Shown piece by piece: positions 14,352 to 55,674 of a stretch of 56,228 nt of DNA. Made by a program: the position numbers and the translations under genes. The notes under the pieces are model-generated. The model had not been told where the DNA came from, did not search any database, and saw only the letters and a list, made by a program, of their open reading frames with translations. Within the stretch, counting starts at the first letter, position 1. Every line of letters begins with the position of its first letter. Source of the stretch: Desulfonatronospira sp. (GTDB lineage Bacteria > Desulfobacterota > Desulfovibrionia > Desulfovibrionales > Desulfonatronovibrionaceae); contig SLDX01000036.1 of the NCBI GenBank assembly GCA_007125075.1, forward strand, positions 1 through 56,228. The letters are read 5' to 3'.

Positions 14352-14370
14352 ATGTGTAGATTTGACACAT
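14352..14370 (+). promoter_or_regulatory. Palindrome TGTGT-N7-ACACA before the kinase gene (putative operator)
   Basis: The site TGTGTAGATTTGACACA at 14353-14369, extended by A and T, is an imperfect dyad. In reverse orientation it matches the site at 17335-17351 at 15 of 17 bases, including both arms. It lies about 30 bp before the kinase start and overlaps two TTGACA sequences. Autoregulation by the encoded NtrC-type regulator is inferred. Confidence 0.6.
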
Positions 14371-14400
14371 GTGCAAGATTAAAATCTGCAAGGCAAAAAT

Positions 14401-15924
14401 ATGAAGAAAAAAATTTTTTCATTTTCCAGACTTTTCAGCCTGCGTTTAACCCTGGTCATTTACGTAATAACTCCATTGGTCCTGACCTTGACTTTAACAG
14501 GCTATCTGATCTTGAATGCTCTGGAAAGACAAGTGGAAAGCCAGATGCAGAATGATCTGGAACTGGTGGCCCGCTCCATTCAATTGCCCTTGAGCCACGC
14601 ACTGGAGCGGGACCGTGAAGGCAGCATGCTTCAGGCCCTGGAATCGGCTTTTGCCATCGGTCGCGTATACAGCGCCAATGTTTACGACCGTGACGGCAAT
14701 GAAATTGCATCCGCAGGAAGAACAGATCCTGAGCCTGAAAAAGAAAAACTGACCGAACTTGCAGCCGAAGGTGAGAAACTAGGAGAATACGGCCACGTAG
14801 CCGGCAGGGATGTGTACTCGTACTTTGTGCCCTTGACCGATTCAGGAGGCAGAATCAGTGGTCTTCTTCAACTTACAAGACCTGAAAGTGATTTCAAGAA
14901 AGACATACGTGCTATAAGAACCAAGGGTGTCCTTGGACTGTCCCTGGGTCTTTTTGTGATGAGCGGACTGGTTCTTTATGGTCACCACCGGGCACTGGGC
15001 AAGCATTTTACAAGACTGAGCAGCAGCATTTCCAGGGTAGCCCGCGGAGAAAGAAGACATCGATTCCTGGCCATCGGGCCTAAAGAAATCTCAGCCATCG
15101 GCCAGCGCTTCAACCATATGCTGGACAGTATTGAATCTGCAGAATCAGAGATTAGAAGACGAAGAAAAGTGCAGGAGGATTTACAGACCAGACTAAGACA
15201 GGCTGAAAAACTTGCTGCCATAGGCCAGCTGGCAGCTGGAGTCGCTCATGAACTGGGGACCCCCTTGAGCATTGTCAGCGGCAAGGCCCAGAGAACGCTA
15301 AGAAACAAGCAGCTGCCCGAAGACGCCACCAGGACCCTGCGGGAGATTCGACAGGAAGTAGCACGCATGGAACATATTATCCGCCAGCTTCTGGATTTCA
15401 GCAGAAGCAGCCGGCTGCAGAAAAGAGAAGTATCCCTGCAGCAGCTGGCAAGCTCAGCAATAGCCGCTGCTGCTGAAGAAGCGCAAAAAACCGGTTGTGA
15501 ATTAAGACTTGCGGGAACCAATCATAAAATTTGCATTCAGGTCGATCCTACAAGAATAGAGCAGGCCTTGATAAATCTGCTTAAAAATGCCCTGCAGTCA
15601 TCCCCTGGGGGCCGGGTGCTTCTTGACTGGGGCGGCGAAGGGGACTGGGCCTGGTTTCAAGTGGAAGACGACGGTCCAGGCATCGCTGATGAAATGAAAT
15701 CCAAACTTTTTGAACCATTTTTTACCACCAAGAAGGTGGGCATGGGCACAGGCCTGGGCCTTGCCGTGGTTCACGGAATTGTTGAAGATCACAATGGAAG
15801 CATTGAACTCAAAAAAAGCAGGCTCGGTGGAGCATGCTTCAGGATCCTGCTGCCGAATGCTGAAAAATCGAAAGCTGAATCTGACGATAAAAAGGCCAGA
15901 GGTCTAAGAAAAAATGTATCCTGA
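14401..15924 (+). CDS. Sensor histidine kinase (partner of NtrC-type regulator)
   Basis: A 507-residue membrane sensor kinase. Membrane helices lie at about 16-38 and 176-195, enclosing a periplasmic sensor region of roughly 135 residues (39-175) that looks like a PAS/Cache-type fold ([13 protein letters not shown]). A HAMP linker (about 196-248) leads to a coiled coil, then the phosphoacceptor His283 in [12 protein letters not shown]. The ATPase core has NLLKNALQS (N box), DDGPGI (G1) and [12 protein letters not shown] (G2). AAGG lies eight bases before the ATG. It overlaps the regulator gene by 11 bp. The signal sensed is unknown; neighbouring envelope genes suggest an envelope or osmotic cue. 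Confidence 0.94.
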
Positions 15925-17308
15925 TCAAAACAAAAACAATAAAATTCTTGTGGTCGAAGACGATAAAGGTTTGGGTCAACTACTGCTCGAAGAACTTCAG
16001 GATCACGGGTTTGATTCCTTCTGGGCAGCCAGTGCTGAAGAAGGTTTGAGCATCATGGACTCCTGGATTCCGGACCTTGTAGTAACTGATCTGCGTTTGC
16101 CGGGAATGAATGGACTGGAATTTCTTCAAACTGTCCTGGATAACCATGCCCATGCACAGCCCGATTTCTTGATGATCACCGCGTTCGGAACAATCTCCAG
16201 TGCTGTGGAAGCTCTCAAGGCCGGTGCAGAAGACTTTCTGACCAAGCCCATTGATCTGGATCATTTCATCCTTACCGTTAAAAAAACCTTGCGCAACCGG
16301 GCTTTGCGCATTGAAGTAAACGAAATAAAAGATCTACTAAAATCTGATTGTTTTCACGAAATGTACGGCAACAGTTCCAGTATGCGCATTTTATTCGATC
16401 AAATCAAAAGGGTGTCCCAAGCTGAAGGTCCGGTGCTCATTTTAGGAGAATCAGGCACAGGCAAGGAACTTGTAGCCCGGGCGGTTCACCTGGAAAGCAA
16501 ACAGAATAATCATCCGTTCATTGCAGTAAATTGTGCGGGAATACCAGAACATCTGGCGGAAAGCGAATTTTTTGGACACAAGGAAGGAGCTTTTACTGGC
16601 GCAAGCAAATCAAGACATGGACTTTTTGCCCAGGCAGACGGCGGGACCCTGTTTCTGGATGAAATATCGGAAATGCCTTTATTCATGCAGGCCAAACTTC
16701 TTCGGCTGCTGCAGGACGGCCAGGTCAGACCGGTTGGAAGCAACCAGGAAAAACAGGTGGATGTACGTATTCTGGCCGCAACTCATAGTGAACTCGAAGA
16801 AGAGGTCCGCCAGGGACATTTCCGGGAAGACCTCTTCTATCGTCTTGACACTTTTACCCTAAGAGTTCCTCCTTTAAGAGACCGCGAAAATGACCTTGAA
16901 ATTCTTGCTGAACGCATGCTTCGCAGCTTCTGTGTGCAGACCGGCAAGAAGATCTCCGGCTTCTCAGAATCATCTCTTCGCATTTTAGACGGGTATCACT
17001 TTCCAGGCAATGTACGCGAGCTTCAAAATGCTGTGGAGAGGGCAGTAACTTTTTGCGATGGCAAAAAAATACTGCCCAGGCACCTTCCTGCCAGGATCAG
17101 GGAAAATCAGTCTCGAAACCAGGAACGCAGCCTATCCGGTTCACCTTTAAACATCTTGTATGATCAGAGCCTGCCTCCTCTGGCAGAAATCGAACAAAGA
17201 TATATCCGGCATGTATTGGACAGGGTCGGAGGCAACAAACGAAGAGCAGCCTCCATACTGGGCATCGGCCGTCGTACTCTTTACCGCAGACTGGGTGAGG
17301 AATCTTGA
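15914..17308 (+). CDS. NtrC-family sigma-54 response regulator
   Basis: A 464-residue activator with a receiver domain (phosphoacceptor Asp59 in VVTDLRLPGMNG, Lys111), an AAA+ sigma-54 activation domain (Walker A GESGTGKE at 178-185, GAFTGA loop at 225-230, Walker [13 protein letters not shown]) and a Fis-type helix-turn-helix at the end (KRRAASILGIGRRTLYRRL). All motifs needed to activate sigma-54 RNA polymerase are intact. The gene overlaps the kinase gene by 11 bp, so they are a pair. A sigma-54 promoter lies 132 bp past its stop and a second one in the window is at 54669; these are likely targets. Confidence 0.96.
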   Translation: MYPDQNKNNKILVVEDDKGLGQLLLEELQDHGFDSFWAASAEEGLSIMDSWIPDLVVTDLRLPGMNGLEFLQTVLDNHAHAQPDFLMITAFGTISSAVEALKAGAEDFLTKPIDLDHFILTVKKTLRNRALRIEVNEIKDLLKSDCFHEMYGNSSSMRILFDQIKRVSQAEGPVLILGESGTGKELVARAVHLESKQNNHPFIAVNCAGIPEHLAESEFFGHKEGAFTGASKSRHGLFAQADGGTLFLDEISEMPLFMQAKLLRLLQDGQVRPVGSNQEKQVDVRILAATHSELEEEVRQGHFREDLFYRLDTFTLRVPPLRDRENDLEILAERMLRSFCVQTGKKISGFSESSLRILDGYHFPGNVRELQNAVERAVTFCDGKKILPRHLPARIRENQSRNQERSLSGSPLNILYDQSLPPLAEIEQRYIRHVLDRVGGNKRRAASILGIGRRTLYRRLGEES

Positions 17309-17334
17309 GGTTGAACAGCCTGCCAAGCCAGTCA

Positions 17335-17351
17335 TGTGTCAAAAATACACA
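17335..17351 (+). promoter_or_regulatory. Palindrome TGTGT-N7-ACACA, putative enhancer site
   Basis: TGTGTCAAAAATACACA ends 88 bp before the -24 element at 17440, about 115 bp before the expected start of transcription. That is a normal place for an NtrC-type activator to bind. Its reverse complement shares TGTGTA, TTTG and ACACATG with the site in front of the kinase gene. Confidence 0.6.
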
Positions 17352-17439
17352 CATTGATCCTTTTCCAAATCTTTTCAGCTTCACTTTTTTTAATCCGTAA
17401 ACACCAGCACTTGGACGTTTTCTTAAGAAATAATCTTTC

Positions 17440-17455
17440 TGGCACGCCTGTTGCT
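17440..17455 (+). promoter_or_regulatory. Sigma-54 promoter (-24/-12) of the DUF4168 gene
   Basis: TGGCAC, five bases, TTGCT: an excellent match to the sigma-54 consensus with correct spacing. Transcription should start near 17467, giving a leader of about 27 bases before the ATG at 17494, which has its own AGGAGG. It lies between the NtrC-type regulator and its probable target. Confidence 0.88.
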
Positions 17456-17493
17456 CAATAATAATTTTAGGTAACTTTTAACAGGAGGTTTTA

Positions 17494-17919
17494 ATGTTGA
17501 AGAAATTTTGTTTGAGTTTTGCAGTTTTAACAGCAGTCTTTGTGATTATTTTGGGAATGGGCCTTAAGGCTGGAGCGCAGCAGGAATATCAGCCTAATGG
17601 ACAACATCAGGAATATCAGCAGGAAATGATGCAGCAGCAGGCTCCTGAAATTGAACTCAGTGAACAGGAACTGGACAAGGTTGCCGAAGCATACAAAGCG
17701 GTCACTGATGTTCGTGAGCAGTTCCAGGAGGAGCTGGGCCAGGTCACTGATCCGGAAAGAGCCCAGGAACTTCAGGAACAGGCCGGACAGGAAATGGTCG
17801 AGGCGGTTGAAGAACAGGGACTGGAGGTTCAAACTTACAACCAGGTCATGGAAGCCGCCCAGGTGGATGAGGAACTAAGAAACAGGCTTTTGGACAGGCT
17901 CGAAGGGATGTACCAATAA
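17494..17919 (+). CDS. Exported DUF4168 protein
   Basis: A 141-residue protein with a signal peptide (about 1-28, cleaved after KAGAQ). A Gln-rich linker (EYQPNGQHQEYQQEMMQQQ) follows, then a DUF4168 domain: LSEQELDKVAEAYKAVTDVREQFQEEL, ELQEQAGQEMVEAVEEQGLEVQTYNQVM and VDEELRNRLLDRLE. The family is helical, secreted and of unknown function; periplasmic location is inferred. A strong AGGAGG ribosome site and the sigma-54 promoter at 17440 precede it. The lipoprotein gene follows after 21 bases, so both are one transcription unit under the NtrC-type system next door. Confidence 0.88.
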   Translation: MLKKFCLSFAVLTAVFVIILGMGLKAGAQQEYQPNGQHQEYQQEMMQQQAPEIELSEQELDKVAEAYKAVTDVREQFQEELGQVTDPERAQELQEQAGQEMVEAVEEQGLEVQTYNQVMEAAQVDEELRNRLLDRLEGMYQ

Positions 17920-17940
17920 GACATGGGAGGATAATGACAA

Positions 17941-18159
17941 ATGTGGTTGAAAGGTTTAATTTTCTCACTGGCCGCTGTTCTTTTGCTTGGTTTTTCATTG
18001 GGATGTGAACCGGAACAAGACCCTTTTGAAGATCCCGGAGGGCCTGAAGGCTTTGAAGAACCGGGACAGCCTTCTCCGGATCCCTATGGTCCGCCTGAAG
18101 AATATGCACCCCCGGAAGAAGATCCTTATGAACAGCCCGGAGAAGAACCAGGCTTTTAG
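17941..18159 (+). CDS. Proline/glutamate-rich small lipoprotein
   Basis: A 72-residue precursor: a 21-residue signal ends in the lipobox-like GFSLGC, so the mature lipoprotein would start at Cys22. The rest is disordered and rich in Pro, Glu, Asp and Gly (PEEYAPPEEDPYEQPGEEP). It is a clear paralogue of the gene at 55148 (same MWLKG start, same LGFSLGCE junction). GGAGG precedes the ATG. It shares the sigma-54 transcript of the DUF4168 gene and is followed by a terminator. Function unknown; an acidic, extended envelope lipoprotein is what the sequence shows. Confidence 0.82.
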   Translation: MWLKGLIFSLAAVLLLGFSLGCEPEQDPFEDPGGPEGFEEPGQPSPDPYGPPEEYAPPEEDPYEQPGEEPGF

Positions 18160-18187
18160 TGTAGGACATAATTCCGGCTGAAACCTG

Positions 18188-18225
18188 AAGGCCCTCGAGT
18201 TTTTAATAACTTGAGGGCCTTTTGC
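18188..18225 (+). terminator. Intrinsic terminator of the DUF4168-lipoprotein operon
   Basis: Arms AAGGCCCTCGAGT (18188-18200) and ACTTGAGGGCCTT (18209-18221) pair with one G-T wobble and are followed by TTTTGC, then further Ts. Confidence 0.88.
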
Positions 18226-18532: not shown

Positions 18533-21500
18533 ATGGCTTCTCAAGACTCATCCACATCCAAAGATCTGCAGGGCCCAAACATGAACAGCCCTGAGCAGGG
18601 AAGAATCTCCTCGCTTTTTTTTGACAAAAGCGACTACGAACTTCTGCATATGGTCAATGAAGTCTACGCGAGAAAGGCTTTTCCAGATCAGAAGAAACTG
18701 CTTGAACCTCATCTTCATCCTCACGGCATCAAGGAAATGGCTGCGCCCAGAGCCCAGCGCATCGCATACTCCGTGATTCAGCTTCTGGGTTCCCTTGAAG
18801 GCGGGGAACGCCGGGACAGAATCAGTGCCTTGCGTTCACTGCGCAATGAAATTTTATACACCGCCCACGGATCCTTAAGAATAAATACAGCACGTGTGCT
18901 GGTGGAAATAATGAAAAGCCTGGTCCGCAGCCATGGAGATTTCAAGCGCCAGCTTGAACTGGCCAGGGATTTCTCCATGATCTCGCTGGGAAAACCCCGT
19001 CAGGTCCGTGATGAACTTAAAAAATACCATCTTCTGGAAATGCCGGAAGAATGGAACCAAGTCACCTTTGACGAACACGTTCACGATGTGAACACCACCG
19101 GACGCAAGTCGCCCACGCACTTGATCATGGATGCCTGGATCAAGGGTATTCGAAGTCTGACAGTCATCTACTATAACCATGTAACCAGGGAAGCTGCCGA
19201 AGAACTTCTGGAAGCGGCACAGATCATGGACATGGATGTTCAGCTGGGCATTGAGTTTTCTTTAAAATTCAGGGACAAGACAACCCGCATGATATGGGTC
19301 CCCAAGGGGTTCAGCGACTCAGCCGATTTCATCGATTTTCTGAATACTCCGCGGATCAAGGAGTTCATGGAAAAAGGACGTGAGGTTTCCAAGCTGAACA
19401 AAGCCTATGTGCTCGACCTTCTGCACTCCTTCAATCATCGCCATCTGTCCGGAATAAACCGCAGGCTGGGCATAAATATGCCCGAGCTGCAGGAAAAAAA
19501 CTTTCTAAGCGCTGTGGGTCTGGGCGAAGTATCTGTACATCATCTGGGCAAATACATCCATGAACGAATATCCTCCGCTCTTGACCACAGGCCCGTGCCC
19601 ACGGAGGCCGAACAATTGACCCCGGCTCAGGAAGCTGCAGACCTGGACACGCGCATACCGGACATCTACGACATCATTGAAAACTATCTGAGACCCGCTC
19701 AAAATCCTGAGGTAACAAGCATTTATGAAATTTCCGAGCCTCCGGAACTTTTGACCCTCACTCTTGCTGAACTGGCTGAACGGCTTAAAAGCCTGCACCC
19801 AAACTCGAATATAATTCTCAACCTGTGCGATCTCAAAGCTGAAGATGTTGTAGAGATTCTTTTTGACTGTCAGGGCATAATAACCCACCTGGAAATTTTA
19901 AATCTGAAAAATCAGGTGCTCGGCCGTGAACACGACAAAGAAAGGATCATCAACCTGCAAAACGCCATAAACGCAGGCAACATAATCAAGCTGAAAAAAC
20001 ACCTGTCTGAACTGGTTGGAGAAGTAGAAAGCAACAAGAGTCTGGACTCTTCGCGCAGGGACAAACTGGTGGAAATCCTCTGCGAAATTTCTACCCTGCA
20101 GTCCTTCTACAAAAACAGACCTTTAATGGGATGCATTGGTTCGGATTCCACAGGCCGTTCCGGCCGGGTATACGGAATGGGCCTGGTCCTGACCGAATCG
20201 CTTCCGAAAAAAGCCCGCAAGCAACTGCAAAACTATAAGGATCGTGCTTACCACAGTCTTGATGTGGGCGTTGAATCGCTGATCAAGGACACGTACGTCC
20301 CCAAAATCCGCTATAACTATCTGGCCGCGGGCATGGCCAGCGCTTTCAGAAAAATCCCGGGGCTCAGCCGTCTGGAATATCAGCGTCTCAGGGAATGGTC
20401 TATCCAGGATTATTACATTCTTTCTCCGAAAAAGAGCAACATCTATACCCTGGGAGGAATTCAATCCACTTTTTTAGCTCCGGCGAGCCGGGCAGACACT
20501 GGCAGAAACCACAGATGGTCTCTATCTGACCTAAAATATCTAAATACCAGGATTAAAATCCTGGCCAAGATAGGCATAGGTTTTATTCCGGCTTTTCTGA
20601 CTTTTTTGCTCACCCATGAATGGTGGCTGCTCATCTACTTCGGGGCTGTAATCTGGTTTGGAATAACAGGCATCCGCAACGTGATCCAGTCCATACTGGG
20701 CTGCGGAGGCATCAACCGCCCTTCCCTGGCCAAATGGAGCACGTTCGTCAGCTGGGACAGATTTGCCGACTCACTTATGTATACCGGCTTTTCAGTTCCA
20801 ATTCTCGATTTTATTTTGAAGACCATGATTCTGGACAGGGGTCTGGATATGACTGTGGCCACTCATCCGCTCATTGTGTATACCACGATTTCCCTGGTCA
20901 ACGGAATGTACCTGTCCACCCATAACTATTTTCGTGGCCTGCCCCGGGCTGCAATCATCGGCAATTTCTTCCGCAGCATACTGGCTATTCCCCTGGCTTT
21001 GCTGTTTAACATGATCGCCGCAGGCCTCCTGGGTTTGATGGGAGTGGTCGCTGTCGAGCGCATTCTCCAGCAGTGGGCGGCAATAATTTCTAAACTGGCT
21101 TCTGATACTGTTGCCGGGGCTATTGAAGGACTGGCGGACAGGGCCTTGTACATCCGGCGCAGAATAATGGACTACAGAAGCAAGTTCCAGCAGCTGTTCA
21201 ATACTTATGCCCATCTGGAGATGCTTTTCCCCATGGACGATGTGCTCGATCTTCTGGAATCAACCCGGGAGCTCATGCTGACCATTGAATACGAAAAAAG
21301 GGATATGGTGAACATTATCATCGTCAATGCCCTTGATCTCATGTACTTCTGGATGTACCAGCCCAGGGCCAAAGGGGTGCTCAAGCAGATTTTCAGACGA
21401 ATGACCCGGGAAGAACGCAAGGTTATTCTTTTGTCCCAGCATGTCCTTTTTCGGGAAAAAAGGATCAGCAGGCTGCTGGTGGAAGGACTTATAGGCAAAA

Positions 21501-21676
21501 ATTTTGCCCGGGCTCTTTCATTTTATCTTGATCACTGGCAGCAGTATATGGAGGAAATTGAAGATGTGGCCAACAAATATCCTCCTGTTCAGGATGACGT
21601 AAAAAAATATTCCATGATCGAAGCCATGTACCAGCCTACTTCGGACAACCTGAACAGACCTTTGGATATTCGCTGA
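18533..21676 (+). CDS. Large PHP-like/membrane protein of unknown family
   Basis: A 1047-residue protein. Residues 177-245 look like a PHP phosphoesterase core: DEHVHDVNTTGRKSP (HxH at 182-184), DAWIKGI, VIYYNH (214-216, where PHP enzymes have TDH) and VQLGIEFSL (GIE at 239-241). A middle part contains ILNLCDLKAEDVVEILF. The C-terminal third has several membrane helices at about 683-725, 785-805 and 820-850, then a soluble tail with EERKVILLSQHVLF. I do not recognise the full architecture; membrane-bound phosphoesterase or sugar-metabolism functions would be guesses. The start is uncertain: no Shine-Dalgarno sequence precedes 18533, and Met17 (18581) is an alternative. Monocistronic, same strand as the asmA-like gene. 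Confidence 0.75.
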   Translation: MASQDSSTSKDLQGPNMNSPEQGRISSLFFDKSDYELLHMVNEVYARKAFPDQKKLLEPHLHPHGIKEMAAPRAQRIAYSVIQLLGSLEGGERRDRISALRSLRNEILYTAHGSLRINTARVLVEIMKSLVRSHGDFKRQLELARDFSMISLGKPRQVRDELKKYHLLEMPEEWNQVTFDEHVHDVNTTGRKSPTHLIMDAWIKGIRSLTVIYYNHVTREAAEELLEAAQIMDMDVQLGIEFSLKFRDKTTRMIWVPKGFSDSADFIDFLNTPRIKEFMEKGREVSKLNKAYVLDLLHSFNHRHLSGINRRLGINMPELQEKNFLSAVGLGEVSVHHLGKYIHERISSALDHRPVPTEAEQLTPAQEAADLDTRIPDIYDIIENYLRPAQNPEVTSIYEISEPPELLTLTLAELAERLKSLHPNSNIILNLCDLKAEDVVEILFDCQGIITHLEILNLKNQVLGREHDKERIINLQNAINAGNIIKLKKHLSELVGEVESNKSLDSSRRDKLVEILCEISTLQSFYKNRPLMGCIGSDSTGRSGRVYGMGLVLTESLPKKARKQLQNYKDRAYHSLDVGVESLIKDTYVPKIRYNYLAAGMASAFRKIPGLSRLEYQRLREWSIQDYYILSPKKSNIYTLGGIQSTFLAPASRADTGRNHRWSLSDLKYLNTRIKILAKIGIGFIPAFLTFLLTHEWWLLIYFGAVIWFGITGIRNVIQSILGCGGINRPSLAKWSTFVSWDRFADSLMYTGFSVPILDFILKTMILDRGLDMTVATHPLIVYTTISLVNGMYLSTHNYFRGLPRAAIIGNFFRSILAIPLALLFNMIAAGLLGLMGVVAVERILQQWAAIISKLASDTVAGAIEGLADRALYIRRRIMDYRSKFQQLFNTYAHLEMLFPMDDVLDLLESTRELMLTIEYEKRDMVNIIIVNALDLMYFWMYQPRAKGVLKQIFRRMTREERKVILLSQHVLFREKRISRLLVEGLIGKNFARALSFYLDHWQQYMEEIEDVANKYPPVQDDVKKYSMIEAMYQPTSDNLNRPLDIR

Positions 21677-54500: not shown

Positions 54501-54606
54501 TGCCAGTTTGTCCCATAATGTGCCGCACGCCCGAAATAAAACAAATCAGGAGCAATATAACAGCTGCCGTTCAATTTTTCATTGGCAGGTTACAACCAGG
54601 TCTTGT

Positions 54607-54668: not shown

Positions 54669-54684
54669 TGGCATACACATTGCT
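54669..54684 (+). promoter_or_regulatory. Sigma-54 promoter (-24/-12) of the 93-residue protein gene
   Basis: TGGCAT, five bases, TTGCT: correct spacing and near-consensus. Transcription should begin near 54696, about 50 bases before the ATG at 54746, which has AAGGAGGG upstream. The same promoter class drives the DUF4168 gene. Confidence 0.82.
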
Positions 54685-54745: not shown

Positions 54746-55027
54746 ATGTTTTTTCAAATCGGCAGACAGCTGCTGAGTGTGTTCTTTGCCATTATGTTAG
54801 TGCTGGGCACTGGTTTTTCAGTATACGCAGGTGATGTTAATGAAGCAGACGAGCGCCGCAATGATGTCAAGGAATACAAGCCGGAAAAAGAGAAAGAACA
54901 TGGTATGGAGCGTGCTCCTGAAAGGGAGTACGATACTGAAAAGGAATATGATACTGAAAGGGAGTATGACCCGGAAAGCAATTACGGACCTGAAGAAGAC
55001 GATGATTATGAGAATCCATTCAATTAA
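54746..55027 (+). CDS. Small exported acidic protein with repeats
   Basis: A 93-residue precursor with a signal peptide (about 1-28, cleaved near VYA-GD). The mature part is short and very charged, with Glu/Asp/Arg/Lys repeats of EREYDTEKEYDTEREYDPE type. No family recognised; such sequences are disordered and may bind cations or other proteins. AAGGAGGG lies before the ATG. Driven by the sigma-54 promoter at 54669; a hairpin follows. Confidence 0.72.
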   Translation: MFFQIGRQLLSVFFAIMLVLGTGFSVYAGDVNEADERRNDVKEYKPEKEKEHGMERAPEREYDTEKEYDTEREYDPESNYGPEEDDDYENPFN

Positions 55028-55147: not shown

Positions 55148-55378
55148 ATGTGGCTTAAAGGTATAATTTTCACCCTGGCAATGGTCCTTATGCTGGGTTT
55201 TTCCCTGGGTTGCGAAACCGAACCCGAAGACCCCTGGGAAGAACCTGGGCCCCCGCCCCCGGAAGAACCTGCACCGCCCCCGGGCGAACCTGCTCCTCCG
55301 CGTGACGAACCGGCTCCTGAAAACTATGGGCCGGCTGAAGAAAACAACGCTGAACCGCAAGATGAACGCAGGTTCTAG
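55148..55378 (+). CDS. Proline/glutamate-rich lipoprotein, paralogue of the 17941 gene
   Basis: A 76-residue precursor: signal with GFSLGC (Cys22 as lipid site), then a Pro-rich acidic chain (PPPPEEPAPPPGEPAPP). The first 22 residues match the 17941 product almost one for one (MWLKG, LGFSLGCE). AAGGAGG lies 12 bases before the ATG. Probably expressed from the sigma-54 transcript with partial read-through of the hairpin at 55072. Function unknown. Confidence 0.82.
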   Translation: MWLKGIIFTLAMVLMLGFSLGCETEPEDPWEEPGPPPPEEPAPPPGEPAPPRDEPAPENYGPAEENNAEPQDERRF

Positions 55379-55446: not shown

Positions 55447-55674
55447 ATGCCCTACGGAAACAATTCAGAGCTTCCTGATCAGATTAAAGAAAACCTTCCT
55501 GATCACGCACAAACTATATACCGAAAAGCTTTCAATTCTGCCTGGGAACAGTATGATTCCCCGGAAAAACGCAGGAGCAGTTCAGACAGGGAAGAAACAG
55601 CGCACCGCGTTGCCTGGTCAGCTGTGAAGAATGTTTATAAGAAAAATCATTCCGGACAGTGGGTGCGCAGATGA
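55447..55674 (+). CDS. chaB: ChaB-family protein
   Basis: A 75-residue protein matching ChaB: LPDQIKENLPDHAQTIYRKAFNSAWEQY, then EETAHRVAWSAVKNVYKK. ChaB is a small protein first linked to the ChaA cation transporter; its biochemical role is uncertain. No ChaA gene is in the window. There is no good ribosome site at normal distance; the start is the only Met in frame. Confidence 0.85.
   Translation: MPYGNNSELPDQIKENLPDHAQTIYRKAFNSAWEQYDSPEKRRSSSDREETAHRVAWSAVKNVYKKNHSGQWVRR

Follow-up and report, generated by a model that had tools for sequence, protein, structure and literature searches.

In the 56,228-nucleotide stretch of Desulfonatronospira DNA analysed here (the window), a histidine kinase and an NtrC-type activator probably form an autoregulated, ZraPSR-like envelope-sensing circuit, which would control the operon of a DUF4168 protein and a small putative lipoprotein; we give this reading a probability of roughly 0.75. 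All of the parts named in a first-pass annotation of this DNA (kinase gene, activator with GAFTGA, sigma-54 promoter past the activator stop, DUF4168 gene, gene for a Pro/Glu-rich small protein and terminator) were present, and a palindrome was found at two places.

14353–14369, minus strand: palindrome, exact match, putative activator site with predicted autoregulation, 32 bp before the kinase start
14401–15924, plus strand: histidine kinase gene (Pfam HisKA and HATPase_c), overlapping the activator gene
15914–17308, plus strand: NtrC-type response regulator gene (Pfam Response_reg, Sigma54_activat and HTH_8)
17335–17351, plus strand: palindrome copy TGTGTCAAAAATACACA, 88 bp upstream of the −24 element, candidate binding site of the activator
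17440–17455, plus strand: sigma-54 promoter TGGCACGCCTGTTGCT (−24/−12), 132 bp after the activator stop
17494–17919, plus strand: DUF4168 protein gene (Pfam), 141 aa, predicted exported from its hydrophobic N-terminus
17941–18159, plus strand: gene for a small Pro/Glu-rich putative lipoprotein, 72 aa, partner of DUF4168
18187–18222, plus strand: intrinsic terminator (stem −25.5 kcal/mol, z −6.7)

Genes of the DUF4168 locus

The kinase starts with long hydrophobic helices, read as two putative transmembrane segments, and continues with a periplasmic sCache/PDC-like sensor, HAMP, HisKA and HATPase_c, with the H-box at residue 283. The model of the sensor (mean pLDDT 70.5) had a PDC fold and aligned with the sensor of WalK (Z 15.7, rmsd 2.3, 130 aligned) and with CitA (Z 13.6); the Pfam sCache_3_3 match of the kinase fell under the family cut-off. 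The nearest solved kinase was the catalytic part of ZraS (3.3e-35). The activator consists of a receiver, an AAA+ domain and a Fis-type HTH, with Walker A at residue 178, GAFTGA at 225 and the recognition-helix motif at 450, and among its solved relatives LuxO and two NtrC-family entries ranked ahead of ZraR (9e-83). For the sigma-54 DNA-binding family, one match was present.

The first product of the operon was assigned to DUF4168 (PF13767) with 57.7 bits against a curated cut-off of 25.8 (2.5e-15, Pfam), and Pfam gave no Metal_resist match in it up to E 0.1. We infer that this protein is exported. Its model, built on six close sequences, was a mostly helical domain with no significant match in Foldseek (best E 2.5); the top VIA-align match (Z 5.4) was to unrelated helical proteins, with no ZraP or CpxP among the matches listed, and a PDB sequence search yielded two matches at chance level. 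No Pfam family was found for the 72-aa protein. Because its lipobox is loose (Ser at −3) and the Cys is absent in one of the 14 loci read, this product is likely but not certain to be a lipoprotein.

Sigma-54 promoter and palindrome in the genome

We infer that the transcript of the DUF4168 operon starts at approximately 17466. On its own, the promoter match is weak evidence in the window: allowing one mismatch, the sigma-54 pattern matched twice against 2.66 expected, which is the chance level, and the match alone was dropped as evidence. The stricter pattern TGGCAY-N5-TTGCW also occurred twice, the mean over 200 simulated sequences being 0.27 and the largest value 2. Across genomes the evidence from the pattern is strong, because TGGCAY-N5-TTGCT had 46 sites in seven genomes of the genus and the reversed pattern had 2. 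As a descriptive count, 26 of 47 sites lay before small secreted proteins.

The palindrome TGTGYC-N5-KRCACA stands upstream of both the DUF4168 promoter and the kinase gene. It occurred exactly at four places in the 2.17-Mb genome; two of these were inside ORFs, and the two intergenic ones were those of the DUF4168/kinase locus. The combined pattern of palindrome and promoter was found once in this genome, at the DUF4168 locus.

Second sigma-54 module

The window contains a second promoter of the same class before an acidic secreted protein, as the first-pass annotation had reported.

54514–54528, plus strand: upstream motif CATAATGTGCCGCAC, unlike the palindrome, before the second sigma-54 promoter
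54669–54684, plus strand: second sigma-54 promoter TGGCATACACATTGCT, GG-N10-GC
54746–55027: acidic secreted protein gene, downstream of the second sigma-54 promoter

Beyond the acidic secreted protein gene come genes for a lipoprotein paralogue of the MWLKG type and for ChaB. The annotation had placed this module in the same regulon as the DUF4168 operon, an assignment that we could not support. The acidic, disordered envelope layer that it had suggested is hypothetical, and DUF4168 itself was modelled as mostly helical. Using 60 shuffles for each promoter region of the genus and its sister genus, no good palindrome match was found in the 250 bp upstream of 54669 (score 7.6, p ~0.07, 150 bp from the promoter), and a different motif, CATWMTGTGCCGCAC, was present. 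This motif was common to 54669 and two other acidic-protein genes (C100 and C16), 140–167 bp before the promoter, and had five exact matches in the genome and none when reversed. As far as tested, the CATAATGTGCCGCAC motif appears to lie outside the DUF4168 circuit.

A single regulon, in which the activator of the DUF4168 locus drives both the DUF4168 operon and the acidic secreted proteins of 54669 and similar modules to form an acidic layer, is unlikely, since the palindrome scores of 54669, C100 and C16 were inside the shuffled range (p 0.07–0.22), these promoters bear CATWMTGTGCCGCAC instead, and two further promoters (G005 C186 and G004 C237) were also without the palindrome. Such a regulon would agree with the common promoter class, the similar leader peptides and, in part, the lipoprotein paralogues, and in sister species a site resembling the palindrome lay 93 bp before each of three acidic-protein promoters (scores 13.3–13.7, p ≤0.02). 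Two sigma-54 enhancer codes can be told apart in this way, which a promoter-only reading would merge. A paralogous DUF4168 operon on contig C28 had no palindrome (score 4.1, p ~0.63) and was dropped as a target of the activator.

Conservation and distribution of the proposed circuit

In all 12 operon-bearing genomes, which belong to two genera, the palindrome (up to two mismatches) was located 88–112 bp before a sigma-54-like GG-N10-GC promoter followed by the DUF4168 gene. As the motif was derived from members of the genus, the five sister-genus genomes test it more fairly. Three of these five (G007, G008 and G012) carry the kinase on a separate contig among different neighbours, in G011 it adjoins the DUF4168 operon, and in G010 (77% complete) it was not found; where the kinase is unlinked, the palindrome stays with the operon. 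In distant families the palindrome was degenerate, mostly not significant per region, and up to 231 bp from the promoter: P values (200 shuffles each) were 0.055–0.68 for six f5 regions, 0.185 for G212, and 0.010 and <0.005 for two f6 regions.

Upstream of the kinase, the palindrome (up to two mismatches) was found in four of the six genus members read and in none of three sister-genus members, in which mostly a half site, GACACATG, was left. No sigma-54 promoter was found before the kinase between 14113 and 14400. A sigma-54 promoter was considered for the NfeD-like gene, which is divergent from the kinase, and rejected, as four of five kinase-upstream regions scanned had none; the sole weak match (three mismatches, L007) points toward the kinase.

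The combined pattern matched 23 times in 18 genomes, nine times at DUF4168 genes, and its reversed control once. It was absent from six of the 12 main operons, and matches also occurred in two genomes of genera without the system. Five of the 14 matches outside the module were inspected: L229 (G007) and L230 (G008) precede a receiver-like protein, which may be a further target, L223 and L241 are inside long genes, and L243 faces no gene.

Among 247 genomes of the class, the kinase (E <1e-90) was present in 17 and DUF4168 in 18, and all 17 kinase genomes had DUF4168 (Fisher 2e-25, a value that overstates independence as the genomes are related); within the family, the kinase was accompanied by DUF4168 in 10 of 10 cases. 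DUF4168 occurred without the kinase in G193. The two genes were neighbours in 14 of 18. In a tree that included eight further activators from the Desulfonatronospira genome analysed here, those of the DUF4168 loci grouped as a single clade (0.998); a motif filter had removed the remaining matches. Five locus records (L005, L006, L007, L008 and L016) are apparently the same as contigs of G003, G001, G002, G004 and G005, respectively, and were counted once.

The palindrome conservation, the 17 shared genomes and the neighbourhood of the two genes give good in silico support to a self-contained circuit of kinase, activator and sigma-54 promoter that would target the operon of DUF4168 and the putative lipoprotein, and the earlier proposal of such an NtrC/sigma-54 circuit gains from the conserved promoter and palindrome and from the single combined match in the genome. 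Alternatively, the kinase and activator might act chiefly on genes such as those of a class III cytochrome or a ZraP-type protein, with DUF4168 as a bystander. In favour of this, a class III cytochrome gene (Pfam) in G006 and its counterpart in G003 have a sigma-54 promoter preceded at 95 bp by the palindrome (scores 21.3 and 17.1), but the constant company of kinase and DUF4168 in class and family, and the restriction of exact intergenic palindromes in the own genome to their locus, make this improbable. It is more improbable still that another regulator binds the palindrome and the kinase-activator pair is a mere neighbour: the palindrome was assigned to the activator by sequence alone, but it is the same at the kinase and DUF4168 genes and remains with the operon even when unlinked from the kinase.

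Proposed model and comparison with known systems

In the ZraPSR-like circuit that we propose, the kinase would sense a periplasmic or membrane condition via its Cache-type domain and phosphorylate the NtrC-type activator. The activator would bind the palindrome at 17335–17351, loop to the sigma-54 polymerase at 17440 and turn on the DUF4168-lipoprotein operon; bound to the second site, at 14353–14369, it would also regulate the operon that encodes the kinase and the activator itself. Both products of the DUF4168 operon would be exported and have their role in the envelope. The likeliest picture is that of a buffer or chaperone-like protein, helical and periplasmic, that works with a lipoprotein partner, and the products may feed back on the kinase in the manner of ZraP. 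The circuit would provide a regulatory context for the DUF4168 family, and the palindrome a precise candidate binding site for an uncharacterised activator of haloalkaliphilic (soda-lake) sulfate reducers.

The first-pass annotation knew of no described system with these parts. This held for the output genes, as DUF4168 was not mentioned by name or accession in the literature searched; it did not hold for the architecture, which is already known from ZraPSR (HydHG) of Escherichia coli and resembles DVU3382-DVU3381/DVU3384. ZraPSR likewise combines a membrane kinase and a sigma-54-dependent regulator with one small periplasmic protein as the main output. Its features recur at the DUF4168 locus as a periplasmic-sensor kinase with HisKA/HATPase_c, an NtrC-type regulator with GAFTGA and a Fis HTH and, judged from sequence and conservation, a gene for a small exported protein that is preceded by a sigma-54 promoter and, farther upstream, by an activator site. 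zraP is divergent from zraSR, and DUF4168 was divergent from the kinase in all nine kinase-bearing loci read outside the genus and sister genus; in Desulfonatronospira, unlike in ZraPSR, the effector operon lies downstream of the activator gene in the same orientation. The predicted output also differs, being DUF4168 and a Pro/Glu-rich putative lipoprotein and no ZraP/Metal_resist protein. According to PMC7657598, the direct targets of ZraR are zraP, zraSR and mgtA; the DUF4168 locus has candidate regulator sites at the corresponding places, before the effector operon and before the kinase gene.

A broader reading is tentative and falls somewhat short of even chances: DUF4168 and its lipoprotein partner may take the role of ZraP in a distinct envelope-stress response of Desulfovibrionales, feeding back on the kinase, and in Desulfonatronospira this response may have been copied and re-wired to a second sigma-54 enhancer code, driving a family of acidic disordered secreted proteins.

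In Desulfovibrio vulgaris, DVU3382-DVU3381/DVU3384 and DVU1418-DVU1419/DVU0036 are described in PMC4641369 as GAFTGA regulators of the envelope stress class with their own operon and one or two further targets, and the targets are called hypothetical in PMC3333781. The DUF4168 circuit is likened to DVU3382-DVU3381/DVU3384 by this description and not by sequence, both being from sulfate reducers, with the own operon and few others as described or predicted targets; the DUF4168-linked kinase was found in only 17 of the 247 class genomes. Zra2 of Vibrio cholerae (VC_1314-1316) is another Zra-like system with a small protein that, according to PMC10848872, lacks similarity to ZraP or CpxP, but its response regulator is CpxR-like (158 aa), in contrast to the NtrC-type activator of the DUF4168 locus. 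The association of sigma-54 with lipoproteins and envelope functions in Francke et al. 2011 (PMC3162934) is a general theme of exterior control held in common, not a matching system.

Also in favour of the ZraPSR-like model, a ZraP-type gene (PF13801) that carries a separate sigma-54 promoter precedes the DUF4168 gene of G007 by approximately 600 bp.

Components and spread of the sigma-54 circuit

Sequence comparison points to a conserved, well-supported sigma-54 circuit that is probably autoregulated and has an uncharacterised output: ordinary logic built from new parts. The window corresponds to contig C93 in a genome of 2.17 Mb, and its nearest relatives at the circuit locus are metagenome genomes under the name Desulfonatronospira. 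The kinase, activator, promoter, two small proteins and terminator described in the first-pass annotation were all found at the locus, and on sequence inspection the function-critical motifs of the circuit proteins were unbroken.

Features of the circuit locus
14401-15924, histidine kinase, overlapping the activator gene
15914-17308, NtrC-type activator, overlapping the kinase gene
17440, sigma-54 promoter TGGCACGCCTGTTGCT, 3' of the activator gene
After the promoter, DUF4168 protein of 141 aa, predicted to be exported
After the DUF4168 gene, Pro/Glu-rich lipoprotein-like protein of 72 aa
Closing this two-gene unit, predicted strong terminator

In the same genome the sigma-54 DNA-binding family has a single match, and the sigma-54 activator domain has 20, of which two are partial or weak. 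A 1047-aa protein 3' of the lipoprotein gene (18533-21676) had no significant match in Pfam and is also kept in relatives (loci L008 and L016).

A family search of 18 genomes found the kinase in 10 and DUF4168 in 12, both within the same two of four genera. Two genomes, G005 (66% complete) and G010 (77% complete), had DUF4168 with no kinase found, and G009 of the sister genus had neither. Among 247 genomes of the class, DUF4168 occurred in 18 and the kinase in 17, all 17 being common to both; G193, with DUF4168 and no kinase, was the sole exception. The two genes adjoined in 14 of 18 cases and stood apart in G007, G008, G012, and G193. Beyond the genus and sister genus, DUF4168 was divergent from the kinase in all nine kinase-bearing loci read (identities 46–64% for the kinase and 53–65% for the activator). 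The circuit activators formed one clade (0.998), apart from eight other own-genome activator sequences, namely those passing the filter. A lipoprotein partner lay 3' of DUF4168 in all 14 loci read from the two genera (12 genomes plus two paralogues), with the lipoprotein Cys in 13; in f5, a more distant family of the class sample, it was called in four of six kinase-linked loci, the exceptions being L194 and L195. G062 has a second DUF4168 copy with no kinase beside it.

Promoter and putative activator site

A promoter sequence match is by itself insufficient evidence, given the window size. In seven genomes of the genus, TGGCAY-N5-TTGCT gave 46 sites versus 2 for the reversed control. Together with one site of the sister genus, 47 were read downstream: 26 precede an automatically picked ORF of ≤200 aa with a hydrophobic N-terminus, the mature part being acidic in 24, and the genes behind other sites include flagellin-like, alcohol-dehydrogenase-like and activator genes (labels by eye, except Pfam results). 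The DUF4168-operon promoter is off consensus in G004 and G007. In G004 (L143, contig C89), about 200 extra bases with inverted-repeat-like ends, seen by eye, separate the promoter from the DUF4168 start; this stretch is perhaps a small mobile element.

Comparison of upstream regions yielded the palindrome TGTGYC-N5-KRCACA, a putative activator site. It lies 88–101 bp 5' of the promoter with ≤1 mismatch in 7/7 genomes of the genus, and at 96–112 bp with ≤2 mismatches in 5/5 operon-bearing genomes of the sister genus. Four exact copies occur in the own genome (14353-14369 on the minus strand, 17335-17351 on the plus strand, and two within ORFs). For the window, a Markov model gives an expectation of 0.03 on one strand. 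As a single pattern, palindrome plus promoter occurred once in this genome, at the DUF4168 operon, and 23 times in the 18 genomes, with one occurrence for the reversed control. Nine of the 23 were at DUF4168 genes (6 of 12 main operons and three paralogues) and 14 elsewhere, including two in genera without the system.

Upstream of the kinase, the palindrome was present with ≤2 mismatches in four of six genus members read and in none of three sister-genus members; the half site GACACATG stood 5' of the kinase start in nine of the 10 sequences read. Although DUF4168 is not divergent from the kinase in this genus, a separate copy of the site stands before the kinase, a sign that the kinase-activator operon is probably autoregulated. 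In L129 and L130 (G004 and G006), the kinase match passes through in-frame stops, probably overrunning a shorter kinase end.

In sister species, some genes for acidic proteins, leaderless DUF4168 proteins and class III cytochromes have palindrome-like sites (at 93–117 bp, scores 9.6–21.3); therefore, regulon content seems to shift from species to species. The cytochrome gene (L106:2093-2575 in G006, where the Pfam assignment was obtained, and its counterpart L092 in G003) has a sigma-54 promoter with the palindrome 95 bp upstream. A sigma-54 promoter also lies 5' of a ZraP-type gene near DUF4168 (L125:4192-4712 in G007, where PF13801 was assigned, and L067 in G001), and the circuit palindrome is absent at both genes.

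The second module

The promoters at 54669 and 17440 belong to one class, and the lipoprotein gene at 55148 encodes a paralogue of the 17941 product, with 57% identity. The module's proposed membership in the same regulon was not borne out: motif scoring found no palindrome in the upstream region, which carries CATWMTGTGCCGCAC instead. A separate activator with a second enhancer code is thus likely to serve this module.

Positions of CATWMTGTGCCGCAC
54514-54528 (window), 5' of the 54669 promoter
Own genome, C16:13339, C100:5748, C59:16 and C127:18055
Relative G005, C16:4209 and C186:3717

The five exact own-genome copies, with no reversed match there, lie before three acidic-protein genes (C16, C93, and C100) and at two contig ends; where downstream sequence is readable, the motif precedes the sigma-54 promoter of a gene for an acidic secreted protein. 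Among the 17 remaining genomes, two had reversed matches with one mismatch allowed, four in all. A ChaB-family gene (55447-55674) directly follows the second MWLKG-type lipoprotein gene.

Comparison with known systems

The circuit shares its logic with ZraPSR. zraP is divergent from zraSR, as DUF4168 is from the kinase in the nine distant loci. The circuit differs in its effector, which by Pfam is DUF4168 and not a ZraP/CpxP-family protein, and it is therefore not filed as a ZraPSR member. PMC7657598 gives E. coli ZraR few direct targets (zraP, zraSR, and mgtA) and cites a work whose title calls ZraP a chaperone and repressor of ZraSR. The literature searched contained no mention of DUF4168 (PF13767). 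By published target descriptions, the circuit can be set beside two GAFTGA regulators of D. vulgaris, which PMC4641369 places in an envelope-stress category with their own operon and few other targets; an earlier mapping called these targets hypothetical (PMC3333781).

Predicted structures

In the DUF4168 model (mean pLDDT 73.6; six close sequences), a Gln-rich stretch of low confidence comes before helices at 57-81, 87-107, 112-124, and 126-140, and structure comparison with the model gave no convincing relative. The kinase sensor was modelled (mean pLDDT 70.5) as a PDC/Cache domain like those of WalK, CitA, and DcuS, so the signal could plausibly be a small ligand, peptide or ion.
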